Shown one piece after another: positions 21,064 to 33,110 of a stretch of DNA of 64,000 nt. The notes under the pieces are model-generated. The model worked only from the letters and a program-made list of their open reading frames with translations, did not search any database and was not told the DNA's origin. Within the stretch, counting starts at the first letter, position 1. Every line of letters begins with the position of its first letter. The DNA comes from Puerhibacterium puerhi (GTDB taxonomy: Bacteria; Actinomycetota; Actinomycetes; Actinomycetales; Cellulomonadaceae): positions 62,001 to 126,000 of the forward strand of contig NZ_WUWN01000005.1 in NCBI RefSeq assembly GCF_009846865.1, in the 5' to 3' direction. The position numbers and the translations under genes are program-made.

Positions 21064-24000
21064 TCACCAGCCGTTCGGGCTGAGCACCTTGCGGATCCGC
21101 TTCTCGCTGACCGCGCCGTCCGTGCCGAGCTGCTGGGCGAACAGCGACACCCGCAGCTCCTCGACCTGCCAGCGCACCTCTGCCAGCTCCGCGGCCCGCG
21201 CCGGGTCGGCCGGCCCCGCGGCGTAGGCGGCGCGCGCCTTGGCGTAGGCCTCCTCGACGTCGCGCACCCGCCAGGCGAGCTCCGCGTCGCGGGCCGGGTT
21301 GGCCTGGGCCTTCTCCAGCCGGTACGACGCCGCGCGCAGGTAGCGCACCAGGTGCGGCAGCCGGCGGGGCGGGGTGGCGCTGACGAACCCGGGGTGGACC
21401 AGCGTCGCGGCGTGGTCCCGGACGTCGGTGAGCGTGTTGAGCAGGGCCAGCGACGAGGTGCCCCGGACCTCGGCCTCGAGCGTGCGCCAGGCGGCCAGCG
21501 CGGCCACGACGTGCCCGGCGACCCGGTGGACCTCGTCCTCCAGGTGGCGGCGCACGAAGGCCTTCGCCTCGCCGTACAGCTCGGCGGTGCGGATCTGTAC
21601 GGCGTCGGGCCCGGGCGGCGTACCGGGCGCGAGGTCGGTGTCCCCGCTGGTCAGCGCGATGACGGCGGCGAGCTGGAGGTCCGCGACGAGGTCGTCGGTG
21701 TTCCGGTACGGGCTCGCGGCCAGCGTGAGCGCCTGCGTGCCGGTCCACCGCGAGGTGACGCGGCCCGGCTGCAGGGCGGTCTCGGTCAGCAGCAGCCGGC
21801 GCACGCCGCGGGCGTGCGCGCTGTCGCGCTCGGCGGCGTCCGCCAGGACGCGCAGCGCCACCGTGGGCTCGTGCCTCGGCCCGGGCTCCTCGACCAGGGC
21901 GGGGTAGCCGCGCACGACCACCCCGCCGCCGAGGTCGGTGGAGACGGCGTCGGGCAGCGCGCCGTCGGGCAGGCCGGCCGGCCAGGTGGTCAGGCCGGTC
22001 TGCTCGGCGATCGCGGGGCCGGCCGCGGTGGTGGCCCGGCCCGCCGCCCGCACCGGCGCCGCACGCTCGGCGGCGGCGTCGGGCACCGGAGCGTCCGCAG
22101 CGCCCTGCGCGGCGCGCGCCTCCTCGAGCGCCCGGCCCACGGCGCCCTTGACCGCGGCGCGCACCGCGGCCTCGGCCTGCGGGGCCAGGCGCCGCTGCAG
22201 CGACAGCAGGTCCTTGGACTCGTCCAGCGCCACGGGTCCGCGGGCGGCACCCCGCCCGTGTCCGCCCCGGCCGCCCCGGGCGTCGCCGGCGGAACCCGAC
22301 GCGTCCACGACGCGGAAGGTCATGCGCAGGTGTGCCGGCAGCCGCTCGACGCGCTCGGCGTCCCACACCTCGTCCGGCACCACGACGTCGCGCAGCGCCC
22401 GCACGGCGCGGGAGAACGCCGCGTGGAACGGCTCGGCCATGTCGCCGGCGCGGGTCATGTCCTCCCACGACGGGGTGTTCTCGCGCAGCCACGCGGCCAC
22501 GGCCGCGCCGACGTCCGGCGCCGGGACCAGCTGCACGCGCACCGCCTTGGGCAGCGAGCGGATCGTGGCGACGCACAGCTCCTCGAGCAGGCCGGGCACC
22601 ATCCAGTCGAAGCCGGCCGGCGACAGCCGCGGCAGCACGGACAGCGGCACGTGCACGGTGACGCCGTCGGCGTCGGTGCCGGGCTGGAACTGGTAGGTCA
22701 GCGGCAGCGTGAGCTCGCCCTGCGTCCAGGTCTCGGGGAACTCGTGGGGGTCCACGGCCTCGACGTCGACCAGGTCCTCGAGGCGGAACGTCAGCAGGTC
22801 GGGGGTCTCGCGCCGGGCGCGCGACCACCACCGGTCGAAGTGCCGGGCGCTGACCACCGAGGCGGGGACGCGCTCGTCGTAGAAGGCGAACAGGTCGTCC
22901 TCGGACGCCACGAGCCCGCGCCGGCGCGAGCGGGCCTCGACCTGCTCGGCCTCCTCGAGCAGCCGGCGGTTCTCGGCGAAGAACGCGTGGTGGGTGGTCC
23001 ACTCGCCCTGCACCAGGGCGTGGCGCAGGAACATCTCGCGCGCCGCCTCGGGGTCGACCTTGGCGTACAGCACGGGCCGGTCGGCCACGATCGGGATGCC
23101 GTACAGCAGCACCTTCTCGGTGGCGATCGCGGCGCCCTGCTTGGTGGACCAGTGCGGGTCGGAGTAGGTGCGCTTGACCAGCTCGCCGGCCAGCTCCTCG
23201 GCCCACTCCGGCTGGATGCGGGCGACGTCGCGGGCCCACAGCCGGGAGGTCTCCACGAGCTCGCCCGCCATGACCCACGCCGGCGGCTTCTTGCTCAGCG
23301 GCGAGCCGGGGAAGATCGCGAACCGCGCGCCGCGGGCGCCGAGGTACTCGTTGCGCGCCTGCTTGGCGGCCCGGCGCAGCGCGCGCTCGCGGGCCTCGCC
23401 CTTGAGGTGGGCGACGGCGGAGGCCTTGACCTCGCCGGTGTCCTGCATGCCGATCTGGCTGAGCAGGCCCGCCAGCAGCGCACGGTGCACGGTCTCGCCG
23501 TCCCACTCGCGGCGCAGCTCGCCGGCGCGCGGCTGGGCGCCCTCCTCGGCCGGCGCCTCGACCAGCTGTCCAGCGTTCGACCGCGGGCGGTACGACATGT
23601 CGATGCCCAGCGGCTTGCTCATCTCGCGCAGCTGGGCCACGACGTCCTGCCACTCGCGCACGCGCAGGAAGTTGAGGTGCTCGGCCTTGCACAGCCGGCG
23701 GAACGCCGAGCCGGACAGCTCGTGCTGCCGGCCGCGCACGTACTCCCACAGGTTGAGGTAGCTCAGGAAGTCCGACGTCGGGTCGGTGAACCGGGCGTGC
23801 AGCTGGTCGGCCTGCTGGCGCACCTCGGCGGGGCGCTCGCGCGGGTCCTGGATGCTCATGACGGCGGCGATGATTGCCACCTCGCGCGCCACGCCGAGCC
23901 GGGAGCCCTCGATGATCATGCGCGCCAGGCGCGGGTCCATCGGCAGCTGCGCCAGGGTGCGGCCGACGTCGGTCAGCCGGGTGCGGCCCTCGCGGGTCTC

Positions 24001-25752
24001 CAGCGCGCCGAGCTCGCGCAGCAGCTGCACGCCGTCACGCACCGCGCGGGTGTCCGGGGGCTCCACGAACGGGAACCTCGCGACGTCGTCGGGCGCCTTG
24101 ACCACGCCGACGGAGATCATCTGCAGCAGCACGCTCGCGAGCGAGGTGCGCAGGATCTCCGGCTCGGTGTACTCGGGCCGGTTCTCGAAGTCCTCCTGGG
24201 AGTACAGGCGGATCGCGACACCGTTCGCGACGCGGCCGGAGCGGCCGGAGCGCTGGTTGGCCGACGCCTGCGAGATCGGCTCGATCGGCAGGCGCTGCAC
24301 CTTGGTGGCCTTGGAGTAGCGCGAGATGCGCGCCAGGCCGGTGTCGACGACGTAGTGGATGCCCGGCACGGTCAGGGACGTCTCGGCCACGTTCGTGGAC
24401 AGCACGATCCGCCGGCCGGGGTGGGCGGCGAACACGCGGTGCTGCTCGGCGGCGGACAGCCGCGAGTACAGCGGCAGGATCTCCACGTGGTCGGGCCGCT
24501 TCGGGTCGCGGACCCGCTCGCCGAGGTGGCCCTCGAGCCCGTCGAGCGCGTCGTGGATCTCCCGCTCGCCGGACAGGAACACCAGGATGTCGCCGGGGCC
24601 CTCGGCCATCAGCTCGTCGCAGGCCTCGAGGATGCCGGTGACCAGGTCCTTGTCCTCGGCGCCCTTCGGCACGCGGCCCGTCTCCGGGTCGGCGTCCGGG
24701 GTCAGCGGGCGGTAGCGGATCTCGACGGGGTAGGTGCGCCCGGAGACCTCGACGACCGGGGCGGCCTTCGGCAGCACGGCCACGACGTCCTCGGGCGCCC
24801 CGCCGACCTCGGCCAGGTGCGCCGGGGAGAAGTGCTGCGCGAACCGCTCGGAGTCGATCGTCGCGGAGGTGATGATCACCTTGAGGTCGGGGCGCTGCGG
24901 CAGCAGCCGGGACAGGTAGCCGAGCAGGAAGTCGATGTTCAGCGACCGCTCGTGCGCCTCGTCGATGACGATCGTGTCGTAGGCCAGCAGCTGCGGGTCG
25001 CGCTGGATCTGCGCGAGCAGGATGCCGTCGGTCATGACCTTGACCAGCGTCTGCTCGCTGGAGGCGTCGGTGAACCGCACCTGGTAGCCGACGATCTCGC
25101 CGAGCGGCGTGCCCAGCTCCTCGGCGATGCGCTCGGCCACGCTGCGCGCCGCGATCCGGCGCGGCTGGGTGTGCCCGATCTGCCCGGCCCGGCCGCGGCC
25201 CAGGTCCAGCAGGATCTTCGGCAGCTGGGTCGTCTTGCCCGAGCCGGTCTCGCCCGCGACGACGACGACCTGGTTCTCGGCGATGGCGCGCGCGATGTCG
25301 TCGCGGCGCGCGGAGACGGGCAGCTGCTCGGGGTAGGCGATCGGCGGCACGACGACGGCGGCGCGCGCCGCCGCGAGCCGCTCGAGCTGCGCGCGCGAGA
25401 CGCGGCGCGGGCCGCGCTCGCGGGGCTGGTCGGCGCCCCGCTCCGACGGGGCGGCCGTGCCGTTCTCCGGGGCCGCCTGGGCCGCCGGGCCGCGGCCGCC
25501 GCGGGCCGGAGCGGCGCCGCCGGAGCCGGGACGCGGCGTGCTCGTGCGCGACGTGCTCGTGCGCGGCGTGCTCGTGCGCGGCGTGCTCGTGCGCGGCGTG
25601 CTCGTGCGCGGCGTGCTCGTGCGCGGTGTCGCCGCGCGCGGCGAGGAGCCGCGCGCGCCGCCGGAGTTCCCCACGCCCCGATTCTGGGCTGCCGATGGCC
25701 GCCCGGAGCGCGAGGCGCCCGCGCGTGTCGCAGGAGCCTCGCGCCGGGTCAC
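21064..25752 (-). CDS. hrpA: ATP-dependent RNA helicase HrpA (DEAH box)
   Basis: A 1562-aa helicase. Residues 1-125 are low complexity; the core has Walker A GETGSGKTTQLPKIL, IDEAHERSLN (DEAH), STNVAETSLTVPG and QRSGRSGRV, followed by the winged helix/ratchet region and the long HrpA-type C-terminal domain. It resolves stalled or structured RNA and collided ribosomes in other bacteria. The GTG start overlaps the ftsL stop (GTGA), implying translational coupling to the dcw genes, which is odd because ftsI normally stands here. Residues of about 40-75 are repeats of TPRTS encoded by a 15-bp tandem repeat. Confidence 0.93.
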   Translation of the reverse strand: MTRREAPATRAGASRSGRPSAAQNRGVGNSGGARGSSPRAATPRTSTPRTSTPRTSTPRTSTPRTSTSRTSTPRPGSGGAAPARGGRGPAAQAAPENGTAAPSERGADQPRERGPRRVSRAQLERLAAARAAVVVPPIAYPEQLPVSARRDDIARAIAENQVVVVAGETGSGKTTQLPKILLDLGRGRAGQIGHTQPRRIAARSVAERIAEELGTPLGEIVGYQVRFTDASSEQTLVKVMTDGILLAQIQRDPQLLAYDTIVIDEAHERSLNIDFLLGYLSRLLPQRPDLKVIITSATIDSERFAQHFSPAHLAEVGGAPEDVVAVLPKAAPVVEVSGRTYPVEIRYRPLTPDADPETGRVPKGAEDKDLVTGILEACDELMAEGPGDILVFLSGEREIHDALDGLEGHLGERVRDPKRPDHVEILPLYSRLSAAEQHRVFAAHPGRRIVLSTNVAETSLTVPGIHYVVDTGLARISRYSKATKVQRLPIEPISQASANQRSGRSGRVANGVAIRLYSQEDFENRPEYTEPEILRTSLASVLLQMISVGVVKAPDDVARFPFVEPPDTRAVRDGVQLLRELGALETREGRTRLTDVGRTLAQLPMDPRLARMIIEGSRLGVAREVAIIAAVMSIQDPRERPAEVRQQADQLHARFTDPTSDFLSYLNLWEYVRGRQHELSGSAFRRLCKAEHLNFLRVREWQDVVAQLREMSKPLGIDMSYRPRSNAGQLVEAPAEEGAQPRAGELRREWDGETVHRALLAGLLSQIGMQDTGEVKASAVAHLKGEARERALRRAAKQARNEYLGARGARFAIFPGSPLSKKPPAWVMAGELVETSRLWARDVARIQPEWAEELAGELVKRTYSDPHWSTKQGAAIATEKVLLYGIPIVADRPVLYAKVDPEAAREMFLRHALVQGEWTTHHAFFAENRRLLEEAEQVEARSRRRGLVASEDDLFAFYDERVPASVVSARHFDRWWSRARRETPDLLTFRLEDLVDVEAVDPHEFPETWTQGELTLPLTYQFQPGTDADGVTVHVPLSVLPRLSPAGFDWMVPGLLEELCVATIRSLPKAVRVQLVPAPDVGAAVAAWLRENTPSWEDMTRAGDMAEPFHAAFSRAVRALRDVVVPDEVWDAERVERLPAHLRMTFRVVDASGSAGDARGGRGGHGRGAARGPVALDESKDLLSLQRRLAPQAEAAVRAAVKGAVGRALEEARAAQGAADAPVPDAAAERAAPVRAAGRATTAAGPAIAEQTGLTTWPAGLPDGALPDAVSTDLGGGVVVRGYPALVEEPGPRHEPTVALRVLADAAERDSAHARGVRRLLLTETALQPGRVTSRWTGTQALTLAASPYRNTDDLVADLQLAAVIALTSGDTDLAPGTPPGPDAVQIRTAELYGEAKAFVRRHLEDEVHRVAGHVVAALAAWRTLEAEVRGTSSLALLNTLTDVRDHAATLVHPGFVSATPPRRLPHLVRYLRAASYRLEKAQANPARDAELAWRVRDVEEAYAKARAAYAAGPADPARAAELAEVRWQVEELRVSLFAQQLGTDGAVSEKRIRKVLSPNGW
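25531..25635. repeat. 15-bp coding tandem repeat in the hrpA N-terminus
   Basis: Six consecutive units of GCGCGGCGTGCTCGT (the first two with one change each) run from 25531 to 25620, followed by a degenerate seventh. On the minus strand each encodes TPRTS. Length variation would change the protein tail without shifting the frame. Confidence 0.9.
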
Positions 25753-26174
25753 GGCTGCGCCGGCGCGCCGCCGACCACCTGGCCGGTGGCCGCGCTGATG
25801 ATCGTCGGGTCCTCGGCGGGCACCATCCCGAGGTCGCGCGCCCGGTCGGGCAGCGACGCCTCGGCGGCCCGCAGCTCGGCCTGCTTGGACTGCACGTCCT
25901 GCGCGACGCGGGCGACCTCGCGGCGCAGCCCGGCCTGCTCGTACGAGCCGCGCGCCATGGTGGTGTTGAGCATCAGCGCCAGGAGCAGGGCGACGACGAG
26001 CAGCGCCCCGCAGATGGCGAGGAACGGCATGCTCGACCGCGCCTGCAGCGGGGCGCGGACGGCCTCGAGCCGCCGGTGCTGCCGGCCGCCGGGCAGGGCG
26101 GTCAGCGGCGCGCGGCGGGGCGCGGGGGCGACGCGGCGGGACGGGACGGCTGCCGGGGCTCGCAGTGCGCTCAT
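25749..26174 (-). CDS. ftsL: FtsL-like cell division protein
   Basis: A 141-aa bitopic membrane protein: basic N-terminal 48 residues, one helix ([19 protein letters not shown]), then a short periplasmic coiled coil ([19 protein letters not shown]). Size, topology and position directly after rsmH identify FtsL of the divisome, which recruits FtsQ/FtsB and activates FtsWI. Its ATG overlaps the rsmH stop (ATGA) and its stop overlaps the hrpA GTG. Primary sequence of FtsL is poorly conserved, so the call rests on context. Confidence 0.82.
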
Positions 26175-27253
26175 CGACGCTCCTCGGAGTTCGTGCTCGG
26201 GTTCGTGCGGGTGCTCGGGTTCGTGCGGGTGCTCGGGCGGGCGGCGCGGCCGCGCCGCCCGAGGCTCGCGGGCTGGCGCAGGTGGTCGGGCGTCGGCCGC
26301 AGGCGCGCCGCCGCGCGAAGCCGGACGGAGGCGGCGCGCGGGTTGCGCTCCAGCTCCGCGGCGTCGGCCTCCTCCGCGCCCCGCGTCAGGGGCTCGAGGT
26401 ACGGGCGGTGGGTCTCCGGCTCCACGGGCAGCCCCGGCGGCGCCGACGACGTCGTGCCGCGCTGGATGGCGCGCTTGACGATCCGGTCCTCCAGCGAGTG
26501 GTACGACTCGACGACGATCCGGCCGCCCACCGCGAGCGCCTCGATCGCGGCGGGCACGGCGCGCTCGAGCACCTCGAGCTCGCCGTTGACCTCGATCCGC
26601 AGGCCCTGGAACGTGCGCTTGGACGGGTTGCCGCCGGTCTTGCGGGTCGCCGCCGGGATGGAGGCGCGCACGAGCTCGGCCAGCTCGCCCGTGCGCTCCC
26701 AGGGCCGCTGCTCGCGGCGCCGCACGATCGCCCGGGCGATGCGCGCGGCGAACCGCTCCTCGCCGTACTCGCGCAGCACGCGGGCGATCTCGCGCTCGTC
26801 GTAGGTGTTGAGCACGTCGGCCGCCGTGAGGCCGGTCGTCTGGTCCATCCGCATGTCGAGCGGGGCGTCCTGGGCGTAGGCGAACCCGCGCTCGGCCTCG
26901 TCGAGCTGCAGCGAGCTGACGCCGAGGTCCATGAGCACGCCCTGGACGCCGTCGAGCCCGGCGTCGGCGACGACGTCGCCGATCTCGTCGTAGACGGCGT
27001 GCACGGGCGTGAACCGCTCGCCGAAGCGAGCCAGCCGCGCCGAGGCCAGGCGCAGGGCCTGCGGGTCGCGGTCGATGCCGATCACCCGGGCGGTGGGCAC
27101 CTGCTCGAGCACCGCCTCGGTGTGGCCGCCCATGCCCAGGGTGCAGTCGACGAGGACGCTGCCGGGCTCCGCCAGCGCAGGCGCGAGGAGGTCCAGGCAG
27201 CGCTGGAGCAGCACGGGCAGGTGCCGGTCGGCGGCGGCGGCGTCGTCGGCCAC
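26171..27253 (-). CDS. rsmH: 16S rRNA (cytosine(1402)-N(4))-methyltransferase
   Basis: A 360-aa SAM-dependent methyltransferase (MraW) that modifies C1402 in the ribosomal P site. Motifs: [60 protein letters not shown] and [15 protein letters not shown] start with AAGGAG six bases upstream. The last 45 residues are an Arg-rich tail ending in [16 protein letters not shown], encoded by 18-bp repeats. A 267-base gap separates it from mraZ, longer than usual for this gene pair. Confidence 0.95.
26189..26236. repeat. 18-bp coding repeat at the rsmH C-terminus
   Basis: GTTCGTGCGGGTGCTCGG occurs at 26201 and 26219, preceded by a shortened 12-base copy at 26189. It encodes the NPSTRT repeats at the protein end, close to the stop codon and to the ftsL start. 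Confidence 0.85.
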
Positions 27254-27520: not shown

Positions 27521-27970
27521 TCAGAACTGCAGGTCCGGGAAGATCTGCTCCGCCGTCTCGGAGTACGCGGACTCCTGCTCGGCGAGGTAGCCCTCCCAGG
27601 CCGTCTTGTCCCAGACCTCGACGCGGGTGCCGGCGCCGATCACGGCGACGTCCCGGTCGAGACCGGCGTACGCGCGCAGGGCCGGCGGGATGGAGACCCG
27701 GCCCTGCTTGTCCGGCACCTCGTCGCTCGCGCCCGACAGGAACACGCGCAGGTAGTCGCGCGCCTGACGGGAGGTCACGGGAGCCTGCCGGACCTGCTCG
27801 TACATGCGGGAGAACTCGTCCATCGGCAGCAGGAACAGGCACCTCTCCTGCCCTCGCGTCATGACGAGACCGTCGGCGAGCCGGGACCGGAACTTCGCGG
27901 GGAGGATCAGCCGGCCCTTCTCGTCGAGCTTGGGGGTGTACGTGCCCAGCAGAAGACCCGTGCCCAGCAT
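27521..27970 (-). CDS. mraZ: Transcriptional regulator MraZ
   Basis: A 149-aa protein with two AbrB-like modules: [21 protein letters not shown] and [20 protein letters not shown] with [11 protein letters not shown]. MraZ forms ring oligomers and binds direct repeats in front of its own gene, controlling the division and cell wall (dcw) cluster. ATG 27970 has GGGAG eight bases upstream; GTG 27988, behind GGGGAGG, is an equally possible start adding six residues. Three GTGGAG repeats with a 10-bp period lie about 50 bases upstream. Confidence 0.95.
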
Positions 27971-28018
27971 CGGCTCGGCTCCCGCCACGGCTCGCACCTC
28001 CCCTCGCGCTCCCGCTCG

Positions 28019-28044
28019 CTCCACCGTACTCCACTTCCCTCCAC
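28019..28044 (-). promoter_or_regulatory. MraZ box in front of mraZ
   Basis: On the minus strand GTGGAG occurs three times at exact 10-bp spacing (plus-strand CTCCAC at 28019, 28029 and 28039). MraZ is known to bind three short direct repeats with 10-bp period upstream of mraZ; the placement here is as expected for autoregulation. A fourth CTCCAC stands at 28071. Confidence 0.8.
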
Positions 28045-28123
28045 CAGGCCTGGGAAAACACGGCGTGGCGCTCCACCGGGCGGGTGAAGATCCGCGGCGG
28101 AGCAGGTCATCGGCCCGGCGCCG

Positions 28124-28225
28124 GGGTGGAGGGCGGTGGAGGGCGAGTGGCAGCACGGCGGCGAGGACGCGGGGTGGAGGGCGGTGGCGGCCCGGCGGCG
28201 CGGTCGGCCGGGTGGAGGGCGGTGG
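28124..28225 (+). repeat. Three direct repeats resembling MraZ-box pairs
   Basis: The 16-mer GGGTGGAGGGCGGTGG occurs at 28124, 28172 and 28210. Each contains two GTGG cores exactly 10 bases apart (GTGGAG then GTGGAG or GTGGCG), the spacing of the MraZ box near mraZ but in the opposite orientation, facing moxR. Copies two and three share a further 13 bases. Confidence 0.75.
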
Positions 28226-28404
28226 CGGCCCGGCGGCGAGGGCGCGCGCTGCCGGGCCTGGTGCAGGTGCGCCGGCGGGCCGCGCGCGCCGTCCAGATCA
28301 CCCACCCCGACCACGCCCGGCCGGCGACCCGTGCGAGGCCCCGGGCCAGTAGGCTGCCGACACCGACGGTCGCGACGACGCGGACCGCCGGCAGCACCTG
28401 ACGC

Positions 28405-28501: not shown

Positions 28502-29539
<1,038 letters not shown>

Positions 29540-29541
29540 CG

Positions 29542-30846
29542 ATGCCGCGCCGCGCCGTCGCGCCGCTGCGCCGCCTGGCCCGGGCACGCCTGACGCGCCG
29601 CGGGGCCACCCTCCTGGTCGTGGGCGCGCTGCTGGCGGTGGCGGGCGCGCTGCTCGCGCTGCCCGACGTCGTGGCGCTCGGCGCCGCGGCGCTGCTCGCC
29701 GTGGCGGTCGCGGTGGGCACGCTCGCCGCGCGGGGCCTCGAGTCGGGCCGTGGCGCGCTGACCGTCGACCGGCGGGTGCAGCCGCACCCGGTGGTGCGCG
29801 GGCAGCGCGGCGACACCCACCTGGTCGTCGCCGCGCGGTCGGCGAGCCCGGCCGCGTACGAGCGGCTGGCGCGGCTGCGCCTGTCCGAGCAGGCCGCTCA
29901 CGAGCTGGTGGGGCCCGAGGGCGTCCGTGCCCGCGTCTCGGCGCGGGCCGACCGCGTCGAGGTGCGCTACGGCCTGCACCCGCGCCGCCGCGGCCGCTGG
30001 ACGCTCGGCCCGCTGCTGACCACCCGCACCGACGTCTTCGGCCTGGTGCGCACCACCGAGCCGCTCGGTGCGGCCACCACCGTGGCCGTGTGGCCGTGGA
30101 CGACCGAGCTGCCGCTGCGCTCGGCGCTGCTGGGCGACGTCGAGCACGCCGCCGCCGGCAGCCGGCTCTCCTCCCCCGACGACTCCGTGGTCCGCGAGTA
30201 CGTCGCGGGCGACGACCCGCGCCGGGTGCACTGGCCCAGCGCCGCCCGCCGCGGACGGCTCATGGTGCGCAGCGACGAGGCGGCCGGCGTGCGCCCGGTG
30301 AGCGTCCTGCTCGACCGGGCGCTGCTGCCGGCCCCCGGCGCGCTGCGCTCGGTCGCCGGGCTGACCGAGCACGACGGCGAGTGGGCGGTCGAGCTCACCG
30401 CCTCCGTCGCGCTGGCGTTCCTGGCCGCGGGCCACCCGGTGCGGCTCGTCGGCACGGCCACGACCCCGCCGGCCGCGGTGCCGTTCGTCACCGGCACCGC
30501 CACGGGCCGCGGGGCGCTGCTCGACGCGACGGTGGACCTGACCGGCACCGGGAACGCCGAGGAGGCCCGCCGCGGTCTCGTGACGACCGTCCGGGCGCTG
30601 CGCGCGATCCGCACCGGCGGCGAGGCCCTGCTGGCCGTGCTGCCCGCGCTGCCCCCCGCCACCACCCTGGACCTCGCCGGCCTGGCGGGCGAGGGCGGCT
30701 GCCACGCGCTCGTCGTGGCCGCGCACGCCGCCGACGGCGACGAGACCGTCACCGCGCTGCGCGCCGCCGGCTGGCGCGCCGTCGCGGCGCGACCGGGCGA
30801 GCCCGCCGAGCAGGCGTGGGCCGACCTGACGGAGGCACGCCGATGA
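29542..30846 (+). CDS. DUF58 domain membrane protein
   Basis: A 434-aa protein with two N-terminal hydrophobic segments (TLLVVGALLAVAGALLALPD and VALGAAALLAVAVAVGTLA), a beta-rich middle, and the DUF58 signature DDSVVREYVAGDDPRRVHW followed by SAARRGRLMVR, which continues into a von Willebrand-like fold. It starts two bases after the moxR stop and its own stop overlaps the next start, so the three genes form one operon. Confidence 0.9.
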   Translation: MPRRAVAPLRRLARARLTRRGATLLVVGALLAVAGALLALPDVVALGAAALLAVAVAVGTLAARGLESGRGALTVDRRVQPHPVVRGQRGDTHLVVAARSASPAAYERLARLRLSEQAAHELVGPEGVRARVSARADRVEVRYGLHPRRRGRWTLGPLLTTRTDVFGLVRTTEPLGAATTVAVWPWTTELPLRSALLGDVEHAAAGSRLSSPDDSVVREYVAGDDPRRVHWPSAARRGRLMVRSDEAAGVRPVSVLLDRALLPAPGALRSVAGLTEHDGEWAVELTASVALAFLAAGHPVRLVGTATTPPAAVPFVTGTATGRGALLDATVDLTGTGNAEEARRGLVTTVRALRAIRTGGEALLAVLPALPPATTLDLAGLAGEGGCHALVVAAHAADGDETVTALRAAGWRAVAARPGEPAEQAWADLTEARR

Positions 30847-33110
30847 CCGCCTCGCGCCGCACCCCGCACCTGCTGGCCGCCACTGGCCTGGTCACCCTGG
30901 CGACCGGCGCGTCGCTGCTCGGCCTCACCGCCGTCGTCCTGCCCGGGCCGTGGGTCGGCGCCGGCCTGGTCGGGATCGTGCTCGTCGCGGCGGCGGCGGC
31001 CGGCACCCGGGCGGCCATCGGCGCGCGCCGCGCCGGACGGTCCGGCGCTGCCGACGACGGCGGCGTGGGCTCCGTGCTGCCGACGCTGGCCGCCGCGCTC
31101 GTCGGCGCCTGGTACCTCCTGGCCCGGTACGGCGCCCCGGGCGAGGGGCCGCGCTGGGTCCCCGGCCCCGACGCCGTCGGCAGGGTGGTGGACCGGCTCG
31201 GCCAGGCCGGCGAGATCATGCGCGGCGAGGTCGCTCCGGTGGTCGGCAGCGCGCCGATCGCGATGCTCTGCGTCGGCGGCGCGGTGGTCGTGCTGCTCGT
31301 CGCCGACGCGCTGGCCTCGGGGCTGCGCCACCCGCTGCTGGGCGGGGTCCCGGTCCTGGTGCTCTGGTTCCCGCCCCTGGTGCTGGTGGGCCGGGTGCCG
31401 TGGGGCGTGTTCGTCGTCACGGTCGCAGCGTTGCTGCTGACGCTCGCCCTGGACGGCGCGCCGGCGCCGGGACGCCGCAGCACCTCCTCGGCGGCGGCCT
31501 CGGCCGTGCGCCGCGCCGGCCGCCGGCGCACGGCGTCCACGACCGCCACCGCGGCCGTCGTCGCCGTCGCGGCGCTGCTCGCCGGCACGGGTGCCGGCGT
31601 GCTGCCCGGCGGCTCGGGGTCGTGGACCGACGCCTTCACCACCACGGCGCGCACCGTGCGCCTCTCCGAGGACCTCGACATGTACCGCAGCCTCACCGCC
31701 CGGTCGGACGAGGTGGTCCTGCGGTACACGAGCTCCACCGGCGACGACGTCGGGCCGCTGCGGATCATGACGCTCTCGGCGTTCGACGGCCGGGACTGGG
31801 GCCGCGGCCCGCAGCGCGAGGGCGACCCGTTCGGACCCGACGACGTGCTCGCCCCGACCGACGCCCCCCTGACCGGTGACCGGGTGGAGCTCGACGTGAC
31901 CGTCGGCACGCTCCGCGAGGACCAGCTGCCCGTGTCCATCGAGCCGCGGGACGTCGTGAGCCCCGCCGACGGGTGGCGCTACGACCCCGCGCGCGACGAG
32001 CTGGTCGGTGGCCCGCGGACGCAGCAGGGCGACCGCTACGAGATCGGCGTGCGACCCCGGGTGCTGACGCCGGAGCGGCTGCGCGGGGCGCCCGCGGCCG
32101 ACGACGTCGACGACGCGTTCCTCGCGGTGCCGGAGTCCGCGCACGCGGCCGACGTGGCGGCCACGGCCGCCGAGGTCGCCGGCGCCGAGCCCACGCGCTA
32201 CGACCAGGCCGTGGCGCTGCAGACCTTCCTGCGCGACACCACCCGGTTCACCTACGACACGGAGGTGCCGCGCGGCCGCACGGGCGACGCGGTGTGGGAC
32301 TTCCTGCAGCAGCGCACGGGCTACTGCGTGCAGTTCGCGACGACCATGGTCGTGATGGCCCGCGCGCTGGGCATCCCGGCGCGCCTGGCGGTCGGCTTCC
32401 TGCCCGGGCGCACCGACGACGACGGCGTGTGGGAGGTCACCGGGCAGGACTCGCACGCCTGGCCCGAGCTGTGGTTCGAGGACACGGGCTGGGTGCGGTT
32501 CGAGCCCACCCCCGCCGTGCAGACGGGCGCCGCCCCCCGGTACGCCGACCCGTCGCTGGCCACGGGCACGCCGCCCCAGCAGCCGTCGCTGGAGCAGGAG
32601 CGCCCGCGCGGTCCGGCCGCCTCGGCCGCCGCGCCGCTGCCGACGCTCTCGCCGTCCACGGCGCCCTCCCCCGGGGTCACCGCCGAGCGGGGCACCCCGT
32701 GGGGCGCCTGGGCCGGCGCCGTCGGGGTGCTGCTGGCGGCCGCCGGGGCGGTGTGGCTCTGGCTGCGGCGACGGGAGGGGGCCGACCGGCGGCTCGACCC
32801 GGAGCGCGCCTGGGACCGGGTGCTGGTGGCGCTGGCGCGCCAGGGCGTGACGCTGCCGCCGGCGACGACGCCGCGCGCCGCGCCCGAGGCGGTCGCCGCC
32901 GGGCTGGAGTCCCGGACCGGCCGCACCCTCGGCTCCGAGGCGCAGGCCGCGCTGCACCGGCTCGCGCGCGCGGTGGAGGACTCGCGCTACGCGCGCCGTG
33001 CGCCCGACCTCGCCCCCGAGGAGCTCGAGGCCCTCGTCGCCACGGTGACCGCGGCAGTCGCGGGGACGGAGCGGCCGGCGCGCGAGCGCGCGGCGGCAGG
33101 GGCCGGCTGA
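30843..33110 (+). CDS. Transglutaminase-like membrane protein (TgpA/DUF3488-DUF4129 type)
   Basis: A 755-aa protein. Residues 1-270 contain six to seven membrane helices; an extracytoplasmic transglutaminase core follows with Cys in RTGYCVQFATTMVVMARA (about C495) and His in GQDSHAWPELWFE (about H538); a Pro/Ser linker, one more helix (GAWAGAVGVLLAAAGAVWLW) and a DUF4129-like C-terminus end it. The start ATG overlaps the DUF58 stop. It probably crosslinks or cleaves an envelope protein with help of MoxR; the substrate is unknown. Confidence 0.92.
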   Translation: MTASRRTPHLLAATGLVTLATGASLLGLTAVVLPGPWVGAGLVGIVLVAAAAAGTRAAIGARRAGRSGAADDGGVGSVLPTLAAALVGAWYLLARYGAPGEGPRWVPGPDAVGRVVDRLGQAGEIMRGEVAPVVGSAPIAMLCVGGAVVVLLVADALASGLRHPLLGGVPVLVLWFPPLVLVGRVPWGVFVVTVAALLLTLALDGAPAPGRRSTSSAAASAVRRAGRRRTASTTATAAVVAVAALLAGTGAGVLPGGSGSWTDAFTTTARTVRLSEDLDMYRSLTARSDEVVLRYTSSTGDDVGPLRIMTLSAFDGRDWGRGPQREGDPFGPDDVLAPTDAPLTGDRVELDVTVGTLREDQLPVSIEPRDVVSPADGWRYDPARDELVGGPRTQQGDRYEIGVRPRVLTPERLRGAPAADDVDDAFLAVPESAHAADVAATAAEVAGAEPTRYDQAVALQTFLRDTTRFTYDTEVPRGRTGDAVWDFLQQRTGYCVQFATTMVVMARALGIPARLAVGFLPGRTDDDGVWEVTGQDSHAWPELWFEDTGWVRFEPTPAVQTGAAPRYADPSLATGTPPQQPSLEQERPRGPAASAAAPLPTLSPSTAPSPGVTAERGTPWGAWAGAVGVLLAAAGAVWLWLRRREGADRRLDPERAWDRVLVALARQGVTLPPATTPRAAPEAVAAGLESRTGRTLGSEAQAALHRLARAVEDSRYARRAPDLAPEELEALVATVTAAVAGTERPARERAAAGAG

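Follow-up and report, generated by a model that had tools for sequence, protein, structure and literature searches.

Upstream of mraZ, in the window (the whole 64-kb stretch of DNA analysed here) and in many families, short arrays of GTGG repeats point away from the gene. These outward arrays are probably auxiliary MraZ operators, which would act in cis on the mraZ (dcw) promoter by bridging, on the same face of the helix, to the MraZ box located there. They have a consensus nearly identical to that of the inward arrays at the mraZ promoter, lie in inverted orientation, keep a helical spacing to the mraZ box, are retained in loci without moxR, and are absent from a genus that lacks mraZ. MraZ itself is the presumed binder of both sets.

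In the window, mraZ, rsmH and ftsL are encoded on the minus strand, and moxR, a DUF58 gene and a TgpA-type transglutaminase gene are divergent from them on the plus strand. The start codons of mraZ and moxR are separated by a gap of 513 bases, which holds both sets of repeats. The features are the following.

25749 to 26174, minus strand: ftsL (NF053549 FtsL_Actino, 71.8 bits, cut-off 55).
26171 to 27253, minus strand: rsmH (mraW), the next dcw gene.
27521 to 27988, minus strand: mraZ, 155 aa, GTG start, with GGGAGGTG judged by eye to be the ribosome-binding site.
28019 to 28044, minus strand: inward array, the putative main MraZ box, three GTGGAG units with a 10-bp period.
28023 to 28028, minus strand: likely mraZ -10, TACGGT, in the inward array between its second and third units.
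28103 to 28109, minus strand: conserved TGACCTG element, between the arrays and beside the proximal outward array, visible in relatives.
28126 to 28141, plus strand: outward array 1, GTGGAGGGCGGTGGAG, in helical phase with the inward array at a distance of 82 bp (between their 5' G letters).
28135 to 28246, no strand assigned: 38-bp tandem repeat, 3.0 copies, carrying outward arrays 2 and 3.
28174 to 28189, plus strand: outward array 2, GTGGAGGGCGGTGGCG, half a turn out of phase with the inward array, at a distance of 130 bp.
28212 to 28227, plus strand: outward array 3, GTGGAGGGCGGTGGCG, 168 bp from the inward array, near phase (0.12 turn off).
28350 to 28355, plus strand: likely moxR -10, TAGGCT.
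28502 to 29539, plus strand: moxR (AAA_3 ATPase), divergent from mraZ.
29542 to 30846, plus strand: DUF58 gene.
30843 to 33110, plus strand: TgpA-type transglutaminase gene.

Matches to AAA_3, DUF58, TgpA_N and the transglutaminase core bear out the gene calls of the divergent operon made in the first-pass annotation. The mraZ product belongs to the MraZ family (Pfam MraZ PF02381, 4.5e-35; TIGR00242, 129.9 bits against a cut-off of 98.35), and the solved chains 1n0e, 9qlg, 9sx6 and 9qlr match it by sequence. MraZ is among the widely conserved bacterial regulators, and was detected in 149 of the 150 family genomes searched; in one genome (G183), two contigs each carry an MraZ match, with similar scores. 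Beyond ftsL, an HrpA-type helicase gene (DUF3418, 21064-25752) takes the place of ftsI. The dcw cluster seems to be split in the window, through rearrangement or assembly, and hrpA was found in none of the mraZ loci of 80 named relatives, which reach at most 5 kb past mraZ. A 15-bp tandem repeat at 25532-25643 (7.5 copies, 92%) lies in the N-terminal part of the hrpA frame and codes for RTSTP-type repeats.

Three GTGGAG units at exact 10-bp spacing had been noticed in front of mraZ and taken for an expected MraZ box, and both points hold. The units occupy 28044-28039, 28034-28029 and 28024-28019 on the minus strand, with a period of exactly 10 bp, and the pattern GTGGNGN4GTGGNGN4GTGG has a single match in the genome, the mraZ box. 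With its tandem GTGG units at a 10-bp period beside the mraZ promoter, the inward array is, judged by its letters, a typical MraZ box. In Escherichia coli K-12, the MraZ box reportedly consists of three GTGG units upstream of mraZ, as work by Eraso in 2014 is said to have described. The geometry upstream of the K-12 gene is indeed the same, with three units at an exact 10-bp period, there 44, 34 and 24 bp before the mraZ start. The two differ, however, in the unit, which is GTGGG in K-12 and GTGGAG in the window, and K-12 has no outward pair in the 600 bp scanned upstream of mraZ.

Across 221 inward arrays, linker 2 starts with TA (frequencies 0.74 and 0.86) and linker 1 does not, which is why a -10 of the form TANNGT is probably situated between units 2 and 3. 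Of 84 genus groups, 39 have GGAGTA on the mraZ strand and 1 has it on the opposite strand. For the likely moxR -10, TAGGCT, the corresponding counts are 20 of 84 on the moxR strand and 1 on the opposite one.

The repeats of opposite orientation described in the first-pass annotation are also present, as three GTGGAGGGCGGTGG pairs with 10-bp spacing, facing moxR, at 28126-28227 on the plus strand. GTGGN6GTGG occurs 12 times in the window, compared with 5.05 expected from shuffling (sd 2.58; one of 100 shuffles reached 12), and five of the 12 are in the mraZ-moxR gap. The 3.9-Mb genome has three exact copies of GTGGAGN4GTGGAG, each of them in this gap. With up to one mismatch allowed, there are 27 genome matches compared with 35 for the reversed control, so that these looser matches are background. 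The linkers of the outward arrays in the window are GGCG, lacking the AA of the consensus found in relatives.

The three outward arrays of the window are not independent of each other, because arrays 2 and 3 sit in the 38-bp tandem repeat, two copies of which (28169-28206 and 28207-28244) are 92% identical. The most similar MraZ among the named loci, 97% identical, is that of L009, a contig titled Isoptericola variabilis JZ7, which has only outward array 1; arrays 2 and 3 and the tandem repeat are absent there. The threefold copy number is thus partly a local duplication without a proven role. Loss of the plus-strand repeats in close relatives would have spoken against the link proposed in the first-pass annotation, and the picture is mixed. 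Array 1 is kept at 82-83 bp in four of the eight named Isoptericola loci, one has an outward array at 240 bp only, and three have none; in none of them do arrays 2 and 3 have a counterpart at matching distances. L009, L010, L011, L015, L016 and L017 carry an array at 82-83 bp, and array 1 is absent from L012, L013 and L018. Xylanimonas and Xylanimicrobium carry an outward array at 83 bp, and the named Promicromonospora have none (0 of 3). In the Isoptericola loci without an array, no degenerate (one-mismatch) array was found at 82 bp.

The recurrence of the arrays was surveyed in 241 mraZ upstream regions, made up of 80 named loci, 80 class or family genomes, 80 family or order genomes, and the window. 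After the duplicates L162, L163, L242 and L251, as well as L265 (<150 bases upstream), were dropped, 236 loci remained. In 152 of these moxR is divergent within 1 kb, in 8 it is further away, 75 have no moxR in the stretch, and one is unclassed. The comparison of 10-bp GTGG pairs on both strands, which the first-pass annotation had proposed, revealed inward pairs in 148 of the 152 moxR-adjacent loci, in all 8 with moxR further away and in 68 of the 75 without moxR. Outward pairs are present in 110 of 152, 1 of 8 (moxR at 1.3-4.9 kb) and 36 of 75, respectively. The other 25 outward spacings (5 to 30) reach only 2-24 of 152, 0-1 of 8 and 0-8 of 75. By genus group, the outward array is found in 50 of 84 moxR-adjacent and 25 of 52 moxR-less groups, and is thus not universal. 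Inward arrays have three units (133), four (47), two (42) or five (2), and outward arrays two (225) or three (4).

Both kinds of array have the consensus GTGGAGnnAAGTGGAG in common. As GTGG was the search word, the agreement beyond it consists of the AG that follows GTGG and the AA before the second GTGG. The stricter GTGGAGNNAAGTGGAG has 53 matches in 47 of 61 family genomes, all upstream of mraZ (44 in the same direction, 9 in the opposite one), and the reversed control has one match. Further strict sites are therefore ruled out in these 61 genomes, and a regulon beyond the mraZ locus, considered with this strict pattern only, was rejected. In Corynebacterium glutamicum, work on MraZ reportedly lies outside the dcw cluster. 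Among the surveyed loci, L069 (Georgenia) and L088 (Citricoccus) have outward arrays within short tandem repeats of 24 and 23 bp, respectively. The mraZ locus of L023, a record titled Sphaerisporangium cinnabarinum ATCC 31213, is Cellulosimicrobium-like, and the record is possibly mislabelled.

The outward arrays are placed on the helix relative to the mraZ box. Distances were measured between the first G letters of the inward and the outward array, omitting 11 loci without an inward array, and were counted by genus groups, which combine named genera and genus codes that may overlap. Proximal arrays fall into classes of 59-64 bp (35 genus groups), 70-75 bp (11), 81-85 bp (7), 92-95 bp (4) and 105 bp (1). 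The steps, at about 61, 72, 82, 93 and 105 bp, are resumed at 140-275 bp. Proximal values outside these classes are 51, 53, 77, 111, 119, 122 and 130 bp, of which 130 bp belongs to array 2 of the window. A period of 10.5 bp fits the distances from 45 to 275 bp best (R=0.55 in 76 genus groups, a value that no trial out of 20,000 with random phase attained), and it is also obtained with the named loci left out (60 groups, R=0.51; none of 10,000 as high). An anchor on the TA-bearing unit, which is independent of the repeat number and omits 17 loci without a unique anchor, gives R=0.55 at 10.5 bp and 0.24 at 10.0 bp (74 groups). An artefact of the 10-bp units was rejected, as the result was the same with this anchor and two-unit outward arrays only.

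For the distal arrays alone (140-275 bp, 57 groups) the period is 10.7 bp (R=0.51). Their phasing holds when weighted by family (p=0.0014) and outside the window's own family (p=0.0022), and is not significant in two subsets, namely within the own family by itself (p=0.08 in 18 groups) and in loci without adjacent moxR (17 groups, p=0.11), in which the proximal arrays are phased (20 groups, p=0.011). Control pairs of GCGG, GGCG, CGGC, CCGG and GCGC at 10 bp, with 13-19 groups each, had R of 0.12-0.33 at 10.5 bp and best-period p >0.15. Some single words are weakly periodic at nominal significance (GGTG 0.24, GTGG without partner 0.21, GCGC 0.21, GCGG 0.18), which makes the phasing p values optimistic. 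Two further controls were unusable because they contain parts of true arrays: GGTG at 10 bp, with R=0.70 in 28 groups, and GTGG at other spacings, with R=0.33 in 75 groups (for each, best period 11.3 and p<2.5e-4). Same-direction upstream pairs (7 groups) and GACG pairs (6) were too few to serve.

The first-pass annotation had read the outward repeats as an MraZ-bound link between the division genes and the moxR operon. The part of this claim that concerns MraZ gains from the recurrence of the arrays and from their nearly unchanged consensus, but the evidence ties them to the mraZ promoter and not to moxR. That the arrays are operators of the moxR-DUF58-transglutaminase operon, with MraZ co-regulating division and an envelope operon, is the strongest of the alternatives, and we consider it unlikely. 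The arrays do face moxR, and they are commoner where moxR is adjacent (110 of 152 loci vs 36 of 75), a difference that is biased because up to 600 bp were scanned in the former and 400 bp in the latter. Yet the ratio of distal to proximal arrays is alike with moxR (78:85 loci) and without it (20:24 loci). In the moxR-adjacent loci the distal arrays keep phase with the mraZ box (R=0.57 in 40 groups; 0 of 4000 trials), but the same arrays are unphased to residue 31 of moxR (R=0.02 at 10.5 bp, best-period p=0.23). In a set of 44 loci, the phasing has p=0.51 when measured against the moxR -10 and p=0.0018 when measured against the mraZ anchor.

Loci without moxR point in the same direction. DUF3040 lies upstream of mraZ on the mraZ strand in 55 loci without moxR. 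It is codirectional with mraZ, and there is therefore no divergent target in these loci; still, 28 of the 55 keep an outward array. A 10-bp pair is present in 30 of the 55, with 0-7 at other spacings. A MoxR search in 28 genomes matched 24, of which 19 had best matches of 54-77% identity (operons L169-L187) and five of 33-50%. In L032 and L167, two of the 28 DUF3040 loci that keep an outward array, the best MoxR match in the genome is less than 50% identical, and the arrays are nevertheless kept, at 60 and 207/216 bp.

Nor do the arrays travel with the moxR promoter. Just one of the 19 moxR-DUF58 operons that are not adjacent to mraZ has a 10-bp GTGG pair within 600 bp, and this pair is off consensus. 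The 11 more distant MoxR matches (L188-L198, nine with DUF58) have no pair in the moxR direction, and the idea that moxR carries its own box elsewhere was rejected. In 12 genomes moxR is separated from mraZ by 1.3-11.5 kb (the eight surveyed and L037, L113, L115 and L151; the shared contig of L037 is deduced from coordinates). Here an outward array is found beside mraZ in four (L113, L115, L151 and L156) and beside moxR in none. A moxR-side pair is likewise missing from all eight loci with moxR at 1.3-4.9 kb, one of which is also among the 19 operons.

In a genus without detectable mraZ, probably Streptomyces, moxR-DUF58 is divergent from rsmH in 12 of the 12 genomes examined (L199-L210). None of the 12 has a GTGG pair, in either direction, across the whole moxR-rsmH gap. 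This also indicates MraZ as the binder, with the control counting as one loss, since it is a single genus. The four tests (phase, moxR-less loci, non-adjacent moxR operons, and the mraZ-less genus) thus favour, as far as sequence comparison can tell, mraZ as the owner of the outward arrays.

The position of the arrays relative to the moxR promoter is in general not constrained. In the window the likely moxR -10 is about 124-224 bp downstream of them, so at least 124 bp away, with the last pair about 124 bp before 28350. An exception is Cellulomonas, in which 8 of the 18 loci with a located -10 have an array 49-51 bp before it. The distal array is 28 bp upstream of the likely moxR -10 in three Oerskovia loci, and 35 bp in Luteimicrobium. 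At these distances of 28-51 bp control of moxR could take place in these genera, and a secondary role of the outward arrays in controlling moxR is possible.

It is improbable that MraZ binds the inward array only and that the outward arrays are bound by another protein, or bend the DNA around the TGACCTG box. An AGGTCA-like element within 20 bp of 71 of the 109 proximal outward arrays would fit this idea, as would the mostly two units of the outward arrays against mostly three or more inward, and the difference at consensus position 8 (A 0.51 inward vs G 0.72-0.76 outward). However, the consensus is otherwise identical inward and outward, distal arrays included, and in the mraZ-less genus inward and outward pairs are missing together. 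TGACCTG itself lies between both MraZ arrays in many relatives, and GGGTGAA further along in several. MtrA binds the mraZ promoter of Dietzia, according to PMC9602371; a link of the TGACCTG element to MtrA is only a guess.

G-quadruplexes, reported for the Staphylococcus aureus mraZ promoter in PMC11796246, are a very doubtful account of the G-rich repeats. Of 251 outward arrays, 172, including the three of the window, fit a two-tetrad pattern, but only 8 fit a three-tetrad one, and the conserved A and AA positions, the 10-bp register and the helical phasing agree better with recognition by a protein. Equally hard to sustain is chance or neutral GC-rich tandem duplication, which the 38-bp repeat around arrays 2 and 3, its absence from L009 and the three of eight Isoptericola loci without an outward array might suggest, but which accounts at most for arrays 2 and 3 of the window and is already disfavoured by the spacing spectrum, with outward pairs standing out at 10 bp only and fixed helical spacings recurring in many families.

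Known systems offer precedents for part of this arrangement. The lac, gal and ara repression loops use helically phased operators, and there, too, the spacing of two operators follows the helical period. In contrast to these, each operator here consists of 10-bp units in an array, for an AbrB-like protein that forms rings. As loops of 60-105 bp would be very tight, wrapping of the DNA around the ring is as likely as looping. The MraZ ring has many subunits, whereas its operator comprises three or four units, a mismatch for which no explanation is known to us. According to the parts of PMC8475190 and PMC7761207 examined, MraZ is a repressor of the cluster it belongs to in both E. coli and Mycoplasma genitalium, and binds its repeats as an octameric ring. 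The same parts of these papers describe the MraZ operators of Mollicutes and Burkholderia cenocepacia as tandem direct repeats at the mraZ promoter, as seen here. For M. genitalium they report a sole chromosomal motif, at mraZ, and complementation in cis only; here the strict motif is likewise restricted to one locus (PMC8475190, PMC7761207). Unlike our loci, those of Mollicutes and B. cenocepacia come with no mention of inverted, helically phased auxiliary arrays in these parts (PMC8475190, PMC7761207). In the literature searched, with subscription papers mostly outside its coverage and including the parts examined of PMC9602371, PMC7761207, PMC8475190, PMC5138195 and PMC11796246, we found neither outward MraZ arrays nor regulation of moxR by MraZ described.

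If the outward arrays are auxiliary operators of mraZ, MraZ on the three-unit inward array around the mraZ -10 would exclude the polymerase and repress. Such repression is suggested by the overlap of the array with the -10 and by the repressor role of MraZ elsewhere. The two-unit outward arrays, which are inverted and share the helix face of the inward array, could be occupied either by the multi-subunit ring on the inward array itself or by another ring in contact with it. They are assigned this role because the ring has more subunits than the three-unit box uses. Rings shared between the arrays, or touching each other, would loop or wrap the promoter DNA and make binding cooperative, and autoregulation could become tighter or more switch-like.

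More tentatively, and at somewhat less than even probability, we propose a nested loop or wrap in many Actinomycetes. In it, an MraZ ring would connect the mraZ promoter's three-unit box to inverted two-unit boxes at a distance of 6-10 helical turns, and frequently to a third at about 15-26 turns, switching the whole dcw cluster and, in loci with an adjacent moxR, also setting the promoter of that gene at the distal end of the complex.

For the reading of such loci, our results advise caution, as an outward-facing motif in a divergent gap need not mean control of the neighbour. The recurrent, inverted and in-phase operators suggest a testable role for the MraZ ring, that of holding two DNA segments, by which the autoregulation of the division cluster would be a looping switch. 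Should the nested loop or wrap hold true, the many-fold symmetry of the MraZ ring would serve a purpose.
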